A stretch of DNA of 45,314 bases, taken from IMG/VR virus record IMGVR_UViG_3300048837_002319, positions 1 through 45,314 of that record, one strand, 5' to 3'. Source of the DNA: a virus. The translations under genes and the position numbers were made by a program. The notes under the pieces were generated by a model that was not told the origin of the DNA, ran no database searches, and was given only the letters and a program-made list of their open reading frames with translations. Positions 27,116 through 39,370 of this stretch are shown here, piece after piece; position 1 is the first letter of the stretch; each line of letters starts with the position of its first letter.

Positions 27116-27305
27116 GCGGATTTCTCCACACCGTGGTCGGCTCGGCCTGGGCCCGCGTCTCGGTGCGAAGCCGGCCGGCCAGGCGGCGCATCGAGCGGAC
27201 GATGCCGTCCTTCTCGACGTGGAATTTCTCCGGATCGATCCGACGCTGACAGAGGCCGTCCAGCTTGGCGGCCAGGGCGTCGAGCTCGTCGGCCGAAGGA
27301 GTCAC
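27105..27305 (-). CDS. 66-residue helical hypothetical protein
   Basis: GTG at 27305 overlaps the tyrosine recombinase stop (GTGA). Sequence is helical and basic (ADELDALAAKLDGLCQRRIDPEKFH..). The longer in-frame extension is antisense to the recombinase and rejected. Tight coupling suggests co-expression with the recombinase, possibly as an accessory or excision factor, but that is only positional. Confidence 0.5.
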   Translation of the reverse strand: MTPSADELDALAAKLDGLCQRRIDPEKFHVEKDGIVRSMRRLAGRLRTETRAQAEPTTVWRNPRAR

Positions 27306-28276
27306 AGCTTCGCGCCGCGGGCGGCGTTGTTCCGGAAGCGATCGGCCTCCTCGATGTACTCGCGCGTCGTGTCGAACCGCGCGTGCCGGGCGTGGCGCAT
27401 CAGCACCTCGGGAGAAGCGCCGCCGTGGGCGGCGCTGGTGATCAGGCCCCTGCGCAGGCTGTGGCCGGCGAAGTCGTCGGGATTGAGCGACGTGCCGGCG
27501 ACGGCCCGCTTCACGATGCCGGCGACCGCCTTGCCGCCGATCGGCGTCTCGCTCATCCGGCCGTGCCGGTCGATCGAGCGCCAGACCGGCCCGTTGCGGA
27601 TCCCGGCGGCGGCCAGCCAGTCGCGCAGCGCGCCGACAGGACACAGGCGTTTGCCGAACGGCACCGCGACGACCGCGCCCTTCCCCAGCTGGTCGCCCTT
27701 GGACTTGGCGATGTGGATCTCGAGGCCGTTCGCCACGAAGACGGCGCGCACCGGCGCGACGGCGTCGAGCGACAGCACCGCGAGCTCGCTACGGCGCAAG
27801 GCTGCGGCGAAGCCCAGCGCCAGCACCGCGCGGTCGCGCTTGCCGGCGAGGGTGTCGGGCAGCTTCCGCGCGACCTTCACCAGGTCGTCGGTGAGCAGGC
27901 CGCGCTTCTTCAGCGGCGGCCTGCCGTGAGCCCGGCGGATGCCGGTCCAGGTGTCGGTGAGGACCGCGCCGCGCGGACGCGGCAGTCCTTCCCGATCGTG
28001 GGCGGCGTTGATCGCCGCCAAACGTCTCGCCAGCGTCGACACCGCATGCGTGGGCGCGCGGGCGGTCAGGTACAGGGCGATGAGGGCCGCTGCCGCCGGG
28101 AGCGGGGCAGCGTCGACGCTGGCGCACCAGCTGGCGAAGTCGGCGAAGTCGCTCTCGTAGGCGCGCCGCGTGTTCGCCGCCATGGCGCCGTCCGCGTAGT
28201 CCGCGGCGGCCCGTGCCAGGCTGGTGATCTGTGGGAGAGCCGCGGGGGTGAGCGGCACGAGGTCGTGGCCGGTCAC
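27302..28276 (-). CDS. Tyrosine recombinase
   Basis: 324 residues from GTG 28276, chosen because GGAG lies 5 bases upstream; an ATG at 28327 is possible. The core-binding domain (about 25-120) precedes a complete catalytic set: Arg161 in AALRRSEL, Lys191 in AKSKGD, His272-x2-Arg275 in GHSLRRG, His298 and nucleophile Tyr307 in HARFDTTREY. Such enzymes cut and join DNA through a phosphotyrosine. It is not beside the att site; the serine recombinase is. It may resolve or rearrange phage DNA, be a second integrase, or be acquired. It is divergent from the small gene at 28308. Confidence 0.88.
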   Translation of the reverse strand: MTGHDLVPLTPAALPQITSLARAAADYADGAMAANTRRAYESDFADFASWCASVDAAPLPAAAALIALYLTARAPTHAVSTLARRLAAINAAHDREGLPRPRGAVLTDTWTGIRRAHGRPPLKKRGLLTDDLVKVARKLPDTLAGKRDRAVLALGFAAALRRSELAVLSLDAVAPVRAVFVANGLEIHIAKSKGDQLGKGAVVAVPFGKRLCPVGALRDWLAAAGIRNGPVWRSIDRHGRMSETPIGGKAVAGIVKRAVAGTSLNPDDFAGHSLRRGLITSAAHGGASPEVLMRHARHARFDTTREYIEEADRFRNNAARGAKL

Positions 28277-28307
28277 CGCAGCTCCAATTTCGTCTAGGAT
28301 CGCCGGC

Positions 28308-28547
28308 ATGAAGCGCAGCGACGTCATCTACATCAGCCTGATCTACCGCGAACTCGTGAGTCTGACCGAGATCGACGATGCCATGGTCGGCCGCGCCGGC
28401 ATGATCAGCGCCGGTCCGGGCGCTGCAGTTTCACCAGCTTTCGTGCGGGACCAGGTTCACCGGCGGAAGCAAAAGCTGATCGCCGAGCTCGCTGAGCTAG
28501 GGGTTGAAAATCCGGCGGAAAGCGACTGGCACGACAGGCCTTTCTGA
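28308..28547 (+). CDS. Small plus-strand protein divergent from recombinase
   Basis: 79 residues, starting 31 bases from the recombinase start on the other strand; AGGAT lies 8-9 bases upstream. Sequence is helical (DVIYISLIYRELVSLTEIDDAMVG; FVRDQVHRRKQKLIAELAELG), perhaps a helical DNA-associated protein. No family recognised. It is the only rightward gene in this leftward block, so it could be a regulator of the recombinase. Confidence 0.55.
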   Translation: MKRSDVIYISLIYRELVSLTEIDDAMVGRAGMISAGPGAAVSPAFVRDQVHRRKQKLIAELAELGVENPAESDWHDRPF

Positions 28548-30563: not shown

Positions 30564-31328
30564 TCAGTCCGGAGGCTCGCGGCCTTCGGCCGCGGCCTCC
30601 CCGTTGATGTCGGGGTCGGGGTTGATTGCGGCCGTTCCGGCCGCCTTGTGGGCGACCTTGACGGCCAGCCTGTCCAGGCCGCGGACCAGTGGGTTGTCCT
30701 GGTCGCTGTCGGCCCAGGCGCGGATCTGCGCGACCCGGGCGGCCTTGTCGGCCTCAAAGTCGACGGGCGGGGGCGCCTTCTGCTTCCAGATCGGCAACAG
30801 CCGCTCGGCCTTCTCGGGCATGCGGATCATGTAGATGTTGGTCGTCTGCTTCACGCTGGGGCCGCGGACACCGCCGTCGCCGGTCTCGACGTACCGGCGC
30901 TGCCAGTCCAGGAACCCGGCCCGCCGAAGCGCCTTCTTCGCCGCCTCGACGGTCGCGACCGAGCAGCGCAGCAGCCGCGCGATCGCGACCATCGACAGGG
31001 TCTCCAGCGAGTCGGCGCCGCGCTCGACCAGGCGCACGAACAAGCGCAACAGCTGCCAACCCCGATGGCCCAGCGGCCCGTTCCGCTGTCCAGGCGCCTT
31101 GTGTTCGCGGTCCCAGATCTCGGCCGCCAGCAGCATCCGCCAGCCCTCCCCGCGCTTCAGCCGCAATCGCCACTGCATCTGCCAGTCGCCGCCGGCCCGC
31201 GCGCTGCGCCGGCGGACCGGCTGCATCGTGCGGCGGTGCTCGGGCTCTGGCGGCCGCCAGGCCGCCTCGGCCGCCAGCGCGTGCGCGACGCCTGTCGCCG
31301 TCCTGGGGGCCTTGAAGGGCGCGTTCAT
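30564..31328 (-). CDS. Winged-helix protein, candidate replication initiator
   Basis: 254 residues. A central helix-turn-helix (LETLSMVAIARLLRCSVATVEAAKKALRRAGFLDWQRRYVETG) with a wing is followed by VKQTTNIYMIRMP, a pattern seen in phage/plasmid replication-initiation proteins of the winged-helix kind. The N-terminus is basic. The acidic tail is disordered. Its gene overlaps the CII-like gene, as in lambdoid cII-O order. It could bind an origin in or near its own gene. A purely regulatory role remains possible. Confidence 0.6.
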   Translation of the reverse strand: MNAPFKAPRTATGVAHALAAEAAWRPPEPEHRRTMQPVRRRSARAGGDWQMQWRLRLKRGEGWRMLLAAEIWDREHKAPGQRNGPLGHRGWQLLRLFVRLVERGADSLETLSMVAIARLLRCSVATVEAAKKALRRAGFLDWQRRYVETGDGGVRGPSVKQTTNIYMIRMPEKAERLLPIWKQKAPPPVDFEADKAARVAQIRAWADSDQDNPLVRGLDRLAVKVAHKAAGTAAINPDPDINGEAAAEGREPPD

Positions 31329-31765
31329 GACCGCACCGCCTTCAGCCCGGCCGGCGCGTGCGCCTCGACGGCCGACCGGAATTCGGCCAGCTGCGTCTCG
31401 ACCTTGGCGAAGGCTGTTTCCAGCAGCCTCAGCTCGGCGGGCGAGATCTCGCCGTCGGACGCCGCCGCGCGCGCGGCCTGCAGCATCTCGGCGGCGGCCG
31501 CGACGGTGTCGCAGGCCTCGGCCATCACGGTCTCGGCGGTCGCCTGTCCCGGGCGGGCCGCCGTCATGGCGCGGCTATAGATCGGCTCGCCGCAATAGGC
31601 CTCGAGGTCGGCGATCGCGTCGGCCGGCATGTACTGCGCGGCGCGAGGATCCTGGATGCGCGACAGGCTGGCGCGACCCAGCCGGCAGGCGCTCGCGGCT
31701 TCAGCCAGGCCGCCGCAGGCGGCGATCAGCTGACGCGCGAGCAGCGCGTGACGCATGGCGTTCAC
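31325..31765 (-). CDS. CII-like helix-turn-helix regulator
   Basis: 146 residues from GTG 31765 (GGAG 7 bases upstream). Residues 5-55 (ALLARQLIAACGGLAEAASACRLGRASLSRIQD) form a helix-turn-helix; a helical, acidic C-terminus (AAEMLQAARAAASDGEISPAELRLLETAFAKVETQL) would oligomerise. This resembles phage regulators of the CII type found upstream of replication genes. A hairpin (31767-31789) covers the ribosome site. Its stop overlaps the next start. Confidence 0.6.
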   Translation of the reverse strand: MNAMRHALLARQLIAACGGLAEAASACRLGRASLSRIQDPRAAQYMPADAIADLEAYCGEPIYSRAMTAARPGQATAETVMAEACDTVAAAAEMLQAARAAASDGEISPAELRLLETAFAKVETQLAEFRSAVEAHAPAGLKAVRS

Positions 31766-32390
31766 GGGGAATCTCCGATCGGGATTCCCGCTGACGGCAA
31801 CGGCCCGCGGCCCCACCCTGCAGTCAGGAAGGGTCGCGTCGGCGGGGCTGAACGCGGGCGCAAGCCTCTTGGCGCGCCGTCGCATGACGGTGCGTGGGGG
31901 CGCTCGCGGCGCGCACAAAAGCCCTCGCCCGCGTCCGCAGAAAGCAGCGCGGGGGCAGTGGGCCTGTGTCAGCCGGAACCGTGTTTTCAGGGGATGGGCC
32001 TTGGCCTGGTCAGGTCCGCGCGCCCGGCGGCTCGGGCGTGGTCGGGGCGGAAGCGTCCAGGAGGCGGCTCACCGATGTGGGGTCACAGCGCCGCGCTTGC
32101 CTGTCGCTCGCGGTCCCGCGCCAGCCGCGCCAGGAGGCGGCGCAGGGAGTGAAAGCCATGGGTTGCAGGGGCGCGCCGGCCCGTCGCGGGACGAATCGGG
32201 AACGCTTGAGAGCAGGTCTGGATGGGGGGTGTCGGAGCAGCTCGCAGTCGGACCGACGACCGCGCCATCGCTACCTCGACGCTCGGTCTGAGGGCGCGGG
32301 CGCAGCCCCGCCAGCGGCGGCCGTCGGGTGGCCGACGCCAGCGGGGCGCCCTACCGTGGGTATCGCAACAACAACCACGGAGAGACTGGG
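31766..32390. other. 625-base region with no convincing gene
   Basis: Between divergent transcripts: the leftward CII-like gene and the rightward 75-residue gene. Apart from the 5' hairpin, it has a nested inverted repeat at 32306-32346 (outer CCCCGC/GCGGGG, inner CGTCGG/CCGACG) and smaller palindromes near 31934. Frames on either strand are low-complexity, Arg/Gly/Pro-rich. It may hold promoters, an origin or a non-coding RNA; none is identified. Confidence 0.5.
31767..31789 (-). promoter_or_regulatory. Hairpin over the ribosome site of the CII-like gene
   Basis: GGGAATC at 31767-31773 is inverted as GATTCCC at 31783-31789 with a 9-base loop. On the minus strand the GGAG ribosome site falls in the loop and stem edge, 2-15 bases before the GTG. 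It could slow initiation. Confidence 0.35.
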
Positions 32391-32622: not shown

Positions 32623-32910
32623 CTACCAGTCACGATCGGCCTGCTCCCGCTGCGCCTGAAAGATCCGCTCGCGGCAGGCCTTCGCCTCCCGCTGCAGCAG
32701 CACGGCGATGTGCTCCGCCTCATCCGGAGTGAGCGGCATGCTGCGTATGGGGCGGCCATGCCAATCGCGGACAAGAGCGATGAAGGTCGACTCGCCGTCG
32801 GACGCCACGAGCACCGCGCTGTCGTCAACGCTGGTGGCCAGAACCTCTGCGCGCCGAAGCACGCCGGCGGTTTCGTTGCTGCGGGTGACCGTTCGGCTAT
32901 GCACCGTCAT
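32623..32910 (-). CDS. Hypothetical protein coupled to XRE regulator
   Basis: 95 residues; its ATG overlaps the stop of the XRE gene (ATGA), so the two are expressed together. Sequence mixes strands (VLATSVDDSAVLVASDGESTFIALVRDW) with a charged C-terminal helix. No function recognised; it could modulate the regulator. Confidence 0.6.
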   Translation of the reverse strand: MTVHSRTVTRSNETAGVLRRAEVLATSVDDSAVLVASDGESTFIALVRDWHGRPIRSMPLTPDEAEHIAVLLQREAKACRERIFQAQREQADRDW

Positions 32911-33167
32911 GCCGCGGCTCCCTCTGGCTGGGCGCAGCTGGCGCGGAAGTCGGCCAGCAGGCCGCGGTCCTCGTCGTTGACCAGGTCCTCGGCCGACACG
33001 ACGCCGGCGGTGTAGCGGTGGATCTTCAGGGCGAGGCGAATTCCGGCGGGCTCGCCGTTCTCGATGCGCGAGAGATGCCCCTTGCCATTGGCCGAGAGGC
33101 CGAGCTGCAGCCCAAGCTGCTCCAGCGTGAGCGATTTCGACTCTCTGAAGGCCGTGAGGGACGCCAT
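32907..33167 (-). CDS. XRE-family (CI/Cro-like) regulator, leftward
   Basis: 86 residues from ATG 33167 (98 if the TTG at 33203 is used). A helix-turn-helix occupies about residues 8-45 (ESKSLTLEQLGLQLGLSANGKGHLSRIENGEPAGIRLALKI). The gene reads away from control region 33178-33230, whose operator half A overlaps its promoter. There is no normal ribosome site before 33167, so a leaderless or unusual start is possible. It probably represses or balances the rightward XRE gene. Confidence 0.75.
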   Translation of the reverse strand: MASLTAFRESKSLTLEQLGLQLGLSANGKGHLSRIENGEPAGIRLALKIHRYTAGVVSAEDLVNDEDRGLLADFRASCAQPEGAAA

Positions 33168-33177
33168 GCCCTCATTT

Positions 33178-33230
33178 GTTGCGTTAGACACAACACGAGT
33201 CAAGGCGCCTGTTGTTGTGTCTATGTGGGT
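33178..33230. promoter_or_regulatory. Divergent control region with paired operators
   Basis: Lies between the leftward and rightward XRE genes. It contains a perfect 11-bp inverted repeat, TAGACACAACA at 33185-33195 and TGTTGTGTCTA at 33213-33223, within a longer element beginning GTTGCGTTAGACACAACA at 33178. On the minus strand TTGACT (33198-33203) is a good -35 for the leftward gene, with the operator in the spacer. The region is a mirror copy of 34156-34208. Confidence 0.7.
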
Positions 33231-33265
33231 CGGCTTCCCGCCCCCTGTTGCGCAGGATCGGGCCG

Positions 33266-33631
33266 ATGACCAGAACGCGCCTCGAATTCGAGCCAGGGGA
33301 TCCCGATTGGTTCCTGAGAGAGTGGATGGCCAGCGCCGGCAAGAAGCAGGCTGACATCAGTCGCGACCTCAGCATGGACAGAGCGCGCGTCAGTAAGATC
33401 TTCAACGGAATGCAGCCGTACTCCCGGATCGACATCAATCGTTTGTCTGCCTGGCTTGAGATCGAGCCCTTCGAGCTGCTCATGCATCCCGACGAGGCCA
33501 TGGCCTACCGACAGCTTCGGGAGTCGGCGATCACCATCGCCGCCGAAGAGCACGGGCGCGCCTGGGACCCCACGCCGGTCAACGACGGCCCAACGGCGAC
33601 TCGCCGCCCCAGGAGGGCGCATGCCCGCTAA
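33266..33631 (+). CDS. XRE-family regulator, rightward
   Basis: 121 residues. Helix-turn-helix at about 15-50: GKKQADISRDLSMDRARVSKIFNGMQPYSRIDINRLSAWLEI. A helical tail follows and ends Arg-rich. AGGA lies about 9 bases before the ATG at 33266. It reads away from control region 33178-33230 in the opposite direction to the other XRE gene, the classic CI/Cro set-up; which one maintains lysogeny cannot be told. The next gene overlaps its stop. Confidence 0.8.
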   Translation: MTRTRLEFEPGDPDWFLREWMASAGKKQADISRDLSMDRARVSKIFNGMQPYSRIDINRLSAWLEIEPFELLMHPDEAMAYRQLRESAITIAAEEHGRAWDPTPVNDGPTATRRPRRAHAR

Positions 33632-33848
33632 AGAGATCGAGCGCTTCTTCGCGCGCACGCCCGATGGCGCGCTTCACACGGTCCTGCGCATGCAGAACGT
33701 GGCCAAGGGGCGCACCCAGTTGGACGGGCACACGCCGGAGGTCGGCGAGATGCCTTACCTGGTCACGACCGCCGGCGACAGGATCAACCTCGTCGACGAC
33801 GGGCGCATGGTGCTGGTCGCTTCAGGTCAGGTCCTGACCCGCGCCTAG
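33621..33848 (+). CDS. 75-residue hypothetical protein after rightward XRE
   Basis: AGGAGG lies 4 bases before the ATG. The protein looks like a small beta-rich domain (DGALHTVLRMQNVAK; GEMPYLVTTAGDRINLVDDGRMVLVASG). No family recognised. It overlaps the XRE gene by 11 bases and the convergent gene at 33822 by 27. Confidence 0.65.
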   Translation: MPAKEIERFFARTPDGALHTVLRMQNVAKGRTQLDGHTPEVGEMPYLVTTAGDRINLVDDGRMVLVASGQVLTRA

Positions 33849-34124
33849 CGGCGGCAGGTCGCACCGGTCGAAATGCATGATCATCGGGCCGGATACGTTG
33901 GCGTAGCGGCCAACGACGCAGAAGTCGCCCGGCGGATGGCCGTTCGAACTGAACCGCCACTCCCGGCGCGCCAGTAGCCGCAGCCCCTGACGCGACGGCG
34001 CCGGATAGCGGGCCCGCTCCCAGATCCTCGCGCCCGTCTCGTCCAGAGCCCGGGAAACCTCGAACTGATCCTCGTCGCCCGGGATCGTGGCAAAGGCCCA
34101 GTCGTCGCCGTTCAGCATCCGCAT
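33822..34124 (-). CDS. Hypothetical protein facing the rightward XRE unit
   Basis: 100 residues from ATG 34124, which has GAGGG about 8 bases upstream; an ATG at 34154 lies immediately next to operator C and would be leaderless. Sequence: strand-rich and polar (AFATIPGDEDQFEVSRALDETG; GDFCVVGRYANVSGP). Its 3' end overlaps the convergent gene by 27 bases, so the two transcripts could interfere. No function recognised. Confidence 0.55.
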   Translation of the reverse strand: MRMLNGDDWAFATIPGDEDQFEVSRALDETGARIWERARYPAPSRQGLRLLARREWRFSSNGHPPGDFCVVGRYANVSGPMIMHFDRCDLPPLGAGQDLT

Positions 34125-34155
34125 TTCGTCACCCTCAACTCTCGGCCAGTGCATG

Positions 34156-34208
34156 GTTGCGATAGATACAATAACACGCCTTGACAGAAAGGTTGTGTTA
34201 GTCGCAAC
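34156..34208. promoter_or_regulatory. Second divergent control region, mirror of 33178-33230
   Basis: Read on the minus strand it aligns with 33178-33230 at about 35 of 48 positions, sharing GTTGCG, ACACAAC, GTCAAGGCG and TGTT.TTGT.TCTAT. Operator C is 34156-34173 and operator D, GTTGTGTTAGTCGCAAC, is 34192-34208, an imperfect dyad. TTGACA at 34181-34186 is a consensus -35 for the rightward operon that begins at 34310. Confidence 0.7.
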
Positions 34209-34309
34209 ATTCGCCGTCCCATCGGGAGGCCGACCTCTGTCGCAGCCTGCCCCGTGAACGGCGGAGCCTCCCGTAGGCCTCCCGATGGGCGCTGCCCAGG
34301 GGGATCCGC

Positions 34310-34576
34310 ATGGCCGACGACACCAACCCGATCGAAGTCCTCAACACCACGGCCCAAGGCCAGCTGAAGTCCATCCTGGAGCGCATCGAGCGCCTCGAGG
34401 AAGACAAGGCCGGTGTCATGGCCGACCTCAAGGAGGTCTTCGCCGAGGCCAAGGGCAACGGCTTCGACGTCAAGATCATTCGCAAGGTGGTCCGCCTGCG
34501 CAAACAGGACCGGGCCAAGCGGCAGGAAGAGGAATCGCTGGTCGACCTCTACATGTCCGCCATCGGCGAGGTCTGA
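34310..34576 (+). CDS. gapR: GapR-family nucleoid-associated protein (DUF2312)
   Basis: 88 residues. Near-full-length match to the GapR pattern: VLNTTAQGQLKSILERIERLE then KEVFAEAKGNGFDVKIIRKVVRLRKQDRAKRQEEE. In Caulobacter GapR is an essential chromosome-binding protein that clamps overtwisted DNA ahead of polymerases and stimulates gyrase and topoisomerase IV. Phage copies are known in alphaproteobacterial phages. It is the first gene of the rightward operon, about 100 bases from control region 34156-34208, with GGGGGAT before its ATG. It may help phage DNA topology or compete with the host protein. Confidence 0.9.
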   Translation: MADDTNPIEVLNTTAQGQLKSILERIERLEEDKAGVMADLKEVFAEAKGNGFDVKIIRKVVRLRKQDRAKRQEEESLVDLYMSAIGEV

Positions 34577-35669: not shown

Positions 35670-36052
35670 CCGCGCCCCGCCGCCTGTCCCAGGGCCCGGC
35701 CATCGCCGCCGGCCTACGCCCGTCAGAGGCCGAGACGCTCGTCCGCCTCTGGCTGATGAACGCCATCAGCAAGGGCACCGCCCGCCGCGGCGGCGCGCCT
35801 CTGGTCGACGCCGATCTGCAGGGCGCGCTGCAGGCGCGCGGCTTCGTCTACCGCGATCTCGCCGCCGCCGCCGATGGCGGCATCCGCCCGGTGTGGTGGG
35901 TCACCAGCGCCGGCGCAACCCTGGCCGCCGTTCTCGCCCACGACCCGGTGACCAAACTGCTCAGCGTTCCCACCGACTTCCTCGAGCCGGCGCAGGACGC
36001 GCTCGCTCTCCACCCCGCCAGCCAAGGAGAACTTCGGCATGAGCGACTCTGA
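35666..36052 (+). CDS. Hypothetical protein, possible winged helix
   Basis: 128 residues. The middle LQGALQARGFVYRDLAAAADGGIRPVWWVTSAGATLA resembles a winged-helix wing and C-terminal strand, like the gene at 39947. Not a confident family match. It overlaps the XRE gene start by 14 bases. Confidence 0.55.
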   Translation: MTAPRRLSQGPAIAAGLRPSEAETLVRLWLMNAISKGTARRGGAPLVDADLQGALQARGFVYRDLAAAADGGIRPVWWVTSAGATLAAVLAHDPVTKLLSVPTDFLEPAQDALALHPASQGELRHERL

Positions 36053-36485
36053 CCGCACCCCCCATCGCGTCGACCTGCACGTCGGCGCCAGGATCCGCGC
36101 CCGCCGCAAGCTGATGGGCGTCAGCCAGGAGGCCCTTGCCGGACACCTGGGCCTGACCTTCCAGCAGGTGCAGAAATACGAGCGCGGCGCCAACCGCGTC
36201 AGCGCCAGCAAGCTGTGGGAGATCGCCCGCGCCCTTCAGTGCAGCCTCGACGATTTCTTCGACGGCCTGGTCGACGAAGGCGGCGTGCCGGTCGAGATCG
36301 ACGACCGTCCCGATCCGCTGACCCAGCTCGGCGGCCTGACCGGCGGCCGCGACCTGGCCGTGGCCTACATCGCGCTTGGCCCGGAAGCCCGCCGCTCGCT
36401 GGTCAACGTCGCCGGCACGATCGTCGAAGCCACCCGGATCGCCGCCGGCGGACCTGTATCCGCCCACACGCTCGAGGCGGCCTGA
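36039..36485 (+). CDS. XRE-family regulator with C-terminal extension
   Basis: 148 residues. A textbook XRE helix-turn-helix at about 15-70: VGARIRARRKLMGVSQEALAGHLGLTFQQVQKYERGANRVSASKLWEIARAL. The VQKYERG.NRVSAS phrase is typical of alphaproteobacterial and prophage regulators. The C-terminus (about 95-145) is helical and may dimerise. It is a third XRE protein in the phage, within the rightward operon rather than the switch region, so may control later genes. Confidence 0.85.
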   Translation: MSDSDRTPHRVDLHVGARIRARRKLMGVSQEALAGHLGLTFQQVQKYERGANRVSASKLWEIARALQCSLDDFFDGLVDEGGVPVEIDDRPDPLTQLGGLTGGRDLAVAYIALGPEARRSLVNVAGTIVEATRIAAGGPVSAHTLEAA

Positions 36486-38370: not shown

Positions 38371-38624
38371 CGCTCGCCCAGGCGCAGATCCTGCGCGAGC
38401 TCGCCGCCCAGGCCGCCGGCTGCGCCATCGCCGCCGCCGAAAAGGCCGCCATCCATCGCCGGCGCGCGGCCGATCATCCCGATCTGGACGCCGTCGTCGG
38501 CTACGCGCTCGACCAAGCCAAGAACCGCGACGCTGATCGCGACGTCTATCTCGCCCGCGAAGCCGCCCTGCTGGCCGGCGCCCGGGCTCTTGAAAGCCAG
38601 CACGCAGAGGAGAGGGCGGCATGA
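38367..38624 (+). CDS. 85-residue helical protein
   Basis: Starts in overlap with the J-domain gene (ATGA). Almost entirely helical and Ala-rich (AQILRELAAQAAGCAIAAAEKAAIHRRRAAD). No motif. It could be a short coiled-coil partner of the neighbouring repeat protein, from which it is separated by an ATGA overlap. Confidence 0.55.
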   Translation: MTLAQAQILRELAAQAAGCAIAAAEKAAIHRRRAADHPDLDAVVGYALDQAKNRDADRDVYLAREAALLAGARALESQHAEERAA

Positions 38625-39370
38625 CGACCGACTTCGACCATATCCTGAACTGGGAGCTGAAGAGCGGCTCCCACGACTTCCCGGGCCCGGACGGCGGCAC
38701 CTGCATCAATGAGGCGGCGATCGTCGCGGCGGGCTTCGAATACAAGTCGGTCATGAGCGCCAACGACTGCCCGCCGTGCTTCTCGCGGCCGCTGTCCTCG
38801 TTCGCCCTGATGCTCAACGACAGCATGCCGAACAATTTGCGGAACAAGCTGCTGAAGCCGTTCGTCACGCGCCTGGCCGGGACGGCCGATACGCCAGAGA
38901 TCGAGCGCGAGCGCATGACATTCATGATCGTTCAGATCGCCCGCCGCATGGTGGCCCCGGCCCTCGAGGGGCTGGCCGCGCCCTCGTTGGTGGCGCGCTG
39001 GAAGGCCTGCGAGACCCTTGAGGATGTGCGTGCCTGCGCCCGCGCCCTCGACCTCGACCTCGCCGTCGCCCGCGCCCGCGCCCGCGCCCGCGCCCTCGCC
39101 CTCGACCTCGACCTCGACCTCGACCTCGCCGTCGCCCGCGCCCGCGCCCGCGCCCTCGACCTCGACCTCGACCTCGACCTCGCCCTCGCCCTCGCCCTCG
39201 CCCTCGCCCGCGCCCTCGACCTCGACAAGTTCTGGGGAGAGGCGGTCGCGATTCTGGATGGCGCCATGGAGATCGGGCGTCAGGCCGAGCCGCTGGATAC
39301 CGCGCTGGTCCTTGAGCGCATGGACCAGATCCGGGTGCGGGCCGCCGAGCGCGTCGGCGCTCCCGTCTAG
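38621..39370 (+). CDS. Protein with a long (RA)n/(LD)n dipeptide tract
   Basis: 249 residues. The N-terminal ~138 residues form a folded region (NWELKSGSHDFPGPDGGTCINEAA; SANDCPPCFSRPLSSFALMLNDSMP; LAGTADTPEIERERM), a family usually followed by Ala-rich low-complexity repeats. Residues 140-202 are almost only Arg-Ala, Leu-Asp and Leu-Ala pairs, encoded by hexanucleotide repeats; then a normal C-terminal ~47 residues. The tract separates positive (RA) from negative (LD) blocks, so it could form a charged helix or self-associate. The ATG overlaps the previous stop. Function unknown. Confidence 0.75.
   Translation: MTTDFDHILNWELKSGSHDFPGPDGGTCINEAAIVAAGFEYKSVMSANDCPPCFSRPLSSFALMLNDSMPNNLRNKLLKPFVTRLAGTADTPEIERERMTFMIVQIARRMVAPALEGLAAPSLVARWKACETLEDVRACARALDLDLAVARARARARALALDLDLDLDLAVARARARALDLDLDLDLALALALALARALDLDKFWGEAVAILDGAMEIGRQAEPLDTALVLERMDQIRVRAAERVGAPV
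39038..39226 (+). repeat. Hexanucleotide repeat tract inside the coding region
   Basis: About 31 six-base units made of GCCCGC, CTCGAC and CTCGCC types, arranged as alternating blocks. A larger unit (LDLD..AVARARARA) occurs twice, suggesting block duplication. Every frame is open, so the tract length can change in steps of two residues without a frameshift. Slippage or recombination here would change dipeptide number. Confidence 0.85.

Follow-up and report, generated by a model that had tools for sequence, protein, structure and literature searches.

A mirrored pair of predicted operators around a small CI-like repressor gene points to a lambda-type immunity region in a temperate phage

We analysed one virus record of the IMG/VR database (IMGVR_UViG_3300048837_002319), whose whole 45,314 bases form the window of this study, and found that two mirrored regions, 33178-33230 and 34156-34208, are very probably the right and left operator regions (OR and OL) of a temperate phage whose immunity region is of the lambda type. 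Helix-turn-helix (HTH) genes of the CI and Cro types diverge across OR, an inverted OL with a predicted outward promoter lies beyond cI, and a CII-like gene is located downstream of cro. The gene order thus runs CII and Cro (leftward), OR, then CI, cargo genes, OL and the gapR operon (rightward). When 33171-33240 was aligned locally to the reverse complement of 34146-34220, 36 of 50 columns were identical and the score was 40, compared with a mean of 14.8 (standard deviation 2.8) and a maximum of 35 in 5000 dinucleotide-preserving shuffles, and each region was the best non-self match of the other in the whole window. An earlier sequence-only reading had claimed this inverted similarity, with its conserved blocks, and divergent neighbours on each side (two XRE genes at the first region, a hypothetical gene and gapR at the second), and both claims were confirmed.

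Each region is bounded exactly by the outer ends of two predicted 17-bp operators, whose centres are 36 bp apart at OR and OL alike. With OR read on the cI strand and OL on the opposite one, the blocks follow in the order O1 (GTTGCG..CACAAC), 4-6 bp, GTCAAGGCG and O2. On the other strand, GTCAAG reads CTTGAC, a -35 box facing outward and adjoining O1, the predicted stronger site of each pair. The shared TTGAC elements of the sequence-only reading are therefore present, and their place can be refined: in both regions they lie between O1 and O2, facing cro and gapR, respectively. The predicted operator O1R (GTTGCGTTAGACACAAC, 33178-33194, plus strand), identified by alignment, lies over the core of the putative promoter PR and scored 27.2 bits against at most 12.1 bits for non-operator sites in the 45 kb, a comparison that is partly circular because O1R helped build the matrix. 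Its counterpart O1L (GTTGCGACTAACACAAC, 34192-34208, minus strand), predicted from the alignment and from relatives, lies over the core of the putative promoter PL. Using a matrix from O1R and O1L alone, we recovered O2L (ATTGTATCTATCGCAAC, 34156-34172, minus strand) as the best leftover site in the window, at 20.0 bits with the next site at 12.1. The fourth predicted operator, O2R (GTTGTGTCTATGTGGGT, 33214-33230, plus strand), was placed by alignment and is degenerate, with one good half-site. The window therefore holds two operators per region rather than three, and extra sites near OR were found only in some relatives. The PR -35 box TTGACT (33198-33203, minus strand) points outward toward cro, and most relatives have a TTGAC or TTGC box there; the PL -35 box TTGACA (34181-34186, plus strand) points outward toward gapR, and relatives have the mirrored box.

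A profile of the CI family retrieved 64 IMG/VR loci, in which each cI-upstream region was compared with everything within 5 kb. The results showed that the best match in most loci lay 0.3-1.6 kb downstream of cI and was an inverted copy. In the pairing test, performed on the 60 loci left after near-duplicate removal, the inverted OR-OL score of a phage's own pair averaged 41.2, compared with 27.4 for swapped partners, and none of 5000 permutations reached this value (maximum 30.6). The inverted orientation outscored the direct one in 52 of the 60 loci; this call used a longer block, as lone 17-mers are palindromes and blind to inverted versus direct orientation. Aligned in related phages and prophages, as the sequence-only reading had advised, the inverted pair thus recurs. 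The operator words vary by phage (GTTTAG..CTAAAC, GTTTCAT..GAAAC, GTTTGCA..TGCAAAC, GTTCGCA..CGAAC, GTTGCGC..CGCAAC, TTTCACC..GGTGAAA and others), and the same word is kept at OL and OR of any one phage, which is expected if a shared repressor imposes it. With matrices from O1R and O1L alone, searched over about 10 kb, 34 of 51 loci had O2L as the best site apart from O1R and O1L themselves, 45 had it among the top three, and it was stronger than O2R in 40 of the 51. Operator pairs were picked by a rule favouring palindromes and then TCAA/GCAA; the permutation test is independent of this rule, and the O2L recovery test depends on it for O1 alone. We also recovered the inverted OL/OR pair in Pam1, Mae-JY04 and Sphingomonadales prophages, all of which have a homologous CI but differ from the window in operator words and cargo.

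The promoter layout of these loci is equally regular. CTTGAC lies about 4-8 bp before O1 on both sides in nearly all phages, so that O1 would cover the rest of the outward promoter. The first T of the PR -35 box is mostly 34-37 nucleotides from the cro ATG in relatives and 36 in the window, the distance expected of a transcript starting at the ATG; from such start-codon spacing, the cI and cro mRNAs are both predicted to be leaderless. Leaderless cI and cro mRNAs have been demonstrated in PY54 (PMC4488713), which offers a precedent. The promoter that would drive cI (PRM) reads in relatives as AACGAC (-35), 18 bp, a TATNAT-like -10 box, about 6 bp and the cI start, and its -35 box occupies the distal half of O2R, which would account for the degeneracy of this operator. 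O1R lies 84-88 bp from the cI start in 48 of 51 loci and 88 bp from it in the window, where the 36-bp spacing also matches the geometry shared by small-CI OL/OR modules: an inverted pair of 17-bp O1, about 7 bp, TCAAG and O2. A candidate PRM -10 box in the window, CAGGAT (33253-33258, plus strand), is positioned as in relatives, 7 nucleotides upstream of the cI ATG, with three of six bases matching.

The operator pair is probably read by one repressor, the CI-like protein encoded at 33266-33631 (plus strand). This 121-amino-acid protein has, by HTH matches and its structural model, a single HTH domain and one long C-terminal helix. The AlphaFold2 model (pLDDT 85) is all-helical, with a five-helix standard HTH fold and residues 39-46 as the recognition helix, and the DNA-binding domains of the lambda and 434 repressors were among the matches to this fold. 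Across the loci, the recognition-helix distance correlated with the operator distance (Mantel r 0.62, shared ancestry not fully removed; largest of 2000 permutations 0.16). The partial correlation was 0.49 for the helix given the rest of CI and 0.15 for the rest of CI given the helix. Prophage loci that a separate search found in Sphingomonadales genomes kept the helix-operator classes wherever the pair could be found (WNKARVS with GTTTAG, WDKRK with GTTTCA, and W(D/G)KRKTS with GTTCCA), although not all of them are independent: L073 and L075 are apparently phages of the first set, and L082 and L084 share operators. Alternatively, the four sites could serve mainly Cro or another regulator, such as the HTH protein encoded at 36039-36485, with CI acting elsewhere. 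In lambda-like switches, CI and Cro are expected to act on common operators, and the Cro sequence also correlates with the operators (r 0.51), but the CI recognition helix is the better predictor (0.72; partial 0.62 versus 0.26 for Cro), and within CI the effect resides in the helix; we consider this alternative very unlikely.

It is likewise unlikely, if somewhat less so, that the module is a full mirror with four promoters, in which OL would also drive the inward gene at 33822-34154 by a PRM-like promoter. This gene starts 2-32 bp from O2L, and inward ORFs (open reading frames) are found near OL in some relatives (L052 and L046). However, in many relatives the interval from cI to OL (about 20-140 bp) contains no gene, and the AACGAC-type PRM -35 motif occurred at OR in 27 of the 51 loci but at the mirrored place of OL in only 2. 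As this motif is mostly confined to OR, OL would not be a full mirror of OR, and the predicted promoter set is PL, PR and PRM. Of the proposal in the sequence-only reading that one repressor could control four promoters, the single repressor with paired operators is thus supported by the co-variation of OL and OR, the recovery of O2L and the CI-helix correlation, whereas the fourth promoter is not. That the likeness arose by chance, or is left over from a mobile or satellite repeat with no part in regulation, scarcely deserves credence. OR and OL match over a short length and at no more than about 70% identity, but their match exceeded the shuffles, it recurs in tens of phages with different sequences and with fixed promoter geometry, and the comparison of own with swapped pairs already contradicts such an origin. 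The layout fits the 'inverted duplication' of the sequence-only reading; ongoing selection by one repressor common to both regions would account for the likeness just as well.

Several points weigh against the assignment of the two regions as OR and OL. The argument is comparative throughout, being drawn from the sites, from how they pair in each phage, from their constant spacing and from the agreement of operator with helix. With the search applied here, about 10 of 62 non-redundant loci lacked a convincing operator pair, and the Mantel statistics retain some shared ancestry. Cro of the window was assigned by its homology to Cro-like proteins that occupy the equivalent position in other loci. 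In addition, O2R and PRM of the window match poorly, with CAGGAT as the -10 box and neither an AACGAC box nor any other clear -35 box; the weak PRM may reflect dependence on activation, or simply divergence.

Taken as an OL/OR pair, the two regions suggest the following mechanism. The 121-amino-acid CI, probably as a dimer, would bind the 17-bp operators, and in a lysogen CI on O1R and O1L (and O2L) would block PR and PL. The block of PR would keep cro, cII and the replication genes off, and that of PL the gapR operon. The outer site O2L would reinforce repression of PL, while O2R would be kept weak because PRM is built into it; CI bound there could tune its own synthesis. Cro would presumably compete for the same sites and favour lytic growth, so that upon induction Cro and the early operons would take over. 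We found no LexA-type autocleavage domain in CI (121 amino acids, matches to HTH families only, a single long C-terminal helix). In the sequence-only reading, the two XRE genes were balanced against the gapR operon; this does not fit the scheme, in which PR and PL are repressed together and cro and gapR stand on the same side.

On the PR side, the gene at 32907-33167 (minus strand) encodes the Cro-like XRE/HTH protein, with homologues directly across OR from CI in 21 related loci. A Cro-sized HTH-like ORF was present at the cro position in 48 of 48 loci examined. For the Cro-like protein of the window, a single-sequence pattern search found no viral relative and tblastn found no phage record. 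In the GTTGC operator class (L049, L056, L057 and others), otherwise unlike CI and Cro proteins have similar motifs in the recognition helix (DKSxVxRW / NKSTVxRW), which suggests convergence on one operator. A small hypothetical gene separates the cro-like gene from the gene of a CII-like activator (31325-31771, minus strand; phrog_101 'CII-like transcriptional activator', E 1.6e-9), whose homologues stand on the cro side in 11 related loci. The PR operon also contains an HTH gene at 30564-31328 (minus strand), possibly a replication gene from a weak match to phage replication initiation phrog_270 (E 0.01). The nearest phage relatives of CI are annotated as CI repressor, and phage Pam1 has Cro and CII genes on the opposite side. 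The authors of the Pam1 study (PMC9382816) compared its gp47-gp49 with CI, Cro and CII of lambda, and the relevant passages do not mention an OL/OR pair.

On the PL side, the first gene is gapR-like (34310-34576, plus strand; PF10073 GapR_DNA-bd, E 3.2e-32). Phage gapR is widespread among phages of alphaproteobacteria, with 153 matching phage records, and several relatives carry it on either side of the switch. The top phage-record match of the window GapR was Caulobacter phage DMCA. DMCA was set aside from the comparison of switches: by reading of its sequence, its repressor is longer and of LexA-like type, and no comparable inverted pair was found. Downstream of gapR on the same strand lies a third HTH (XRE) repressor-like gene (36039-36485, plus strand; phrog_2328 phage repressors, E 4e-12). 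The record also contains integrases of two types, one a tyrosine recombinase (27302-28327, minus strand) and the other a large serine integrase at the right end of the contig (43545-45314, plus strand). An ORF at 38621-39370 (plus strand) has long LDLDLD and ARARAR dipeptide runs and may be a repeat-expanded gene.

The PL leader of the window (34218-34289, plus strand) contains a perfect 14-bp inverted repeat (34218-34231 and 34276-34289) in its centroid structure. PL transcripts of relatives tend to open with a shorter stem-loop of the CTCC...GGAG type; the ribosome-binding site of the first PL gene lies in its 3' arm in 23 of 45 loci. These stems beat shuffles (p<=0.05) in 11 of the 45 loci, with about 2 expected, and the mean folding z was -1.4 at PL and +0.4 at PR. 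A search of Rfam found no match in the window. The cargo slot that related loci have between the cI stop and OL, at the position of lambda rexAB, is variable and measures about 20 bp to 1.2 kb. Its genes often overlap the cI stop codon, and the encoded proteins include TonB_C, SHOCT/DUF4429, zinc-ribbon and tRNA_anti-like ones. In the window this slot holds a small ORF overlapping the cI stop (33621-33848, plus strand), in keeping with slot content that varies between relatives, and the hypothetical gene facing inward from OL (33822-34154, minus strand; start 34154 or 34124; third-position GC 0.83). Domain and PHROG family scans gave no family match for either product, and the latter had no homologue in the related loci. 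Cargo genes are possibly superinfection-exclusion genes; PADLOC found nothing on them except one marginal match.

Compared with lambda (OL-rexBA-cI-OR-cro-cII), the gene order is the same in mirror image: CI and Cro diverge across OR, OL lies beyond cI and the cargo slot with PL pointing away, and the HTH domain is of the lambda repressor class. Lambda operators are also 17 bp long. Unlike lambda, the window has two operators per region instead of three, with a 36-bp centre spacing, a CI of 121 amino acids without a C-terminal cleavage/oligomerisation domain, and a cro predicted to be leaderless. The PL operon, again unlike lambda, is headed by gapR, and no N-like antiterminator was identified, none having been specifically sought. 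A loop forms between OL and OR in lambda; no observation here implies one. The telomere phages N15, PY54 and phiKO2 (immB) also have a switch of the CI/Cro type, and OR and OL sites are described in N15 (PMC4488713), but these phages have a different repressor and plasmid prophages. In Rhizobium phage 16-3, an alphaproteobacterial temperate phage, PL and PR are under one C repressor (PMC3694467), an arrangement like the one proposed here as judged by description rather than sequence comparison. The pair described here is thus of a kind already known, the lambda-type OL/OR pair, and is a distinct compact variant of it with a small one-domain CI, a two-site geometry and a helix-operator code.

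With these results, a similarity that had lacked an explanation can be read as a defined switch whose operators and promoters have names. Few switches of this kind have been studied in alphaproteobacterial hosts. The chances are about even that these modules are built on one rigid chassis, with fixed promoter geometry, leaderless cI and cro and a pair of operators on each side, and that the CI helix and the operator word are its only parts to vary, doing so in concert. Many specificities would have arisen in this way, the operator would be predictable from about ten CI residues, and the PL mRNA, unlike those of cI and cro, would begin with a stem-loop tending to hold the ribosome-binding site of the first gene. 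Leaderless cI and cro with fixed spacing are a general prediction. The loci provide about 50 natural repressor-operator pairs in which helix changes can be read against operator changes, and this set would help to predict, for hosts in the Sphingomonadales and elsewhere among the alphaproteobacteria, phage immunity groups, that is, which phage is blocked by which prophage.
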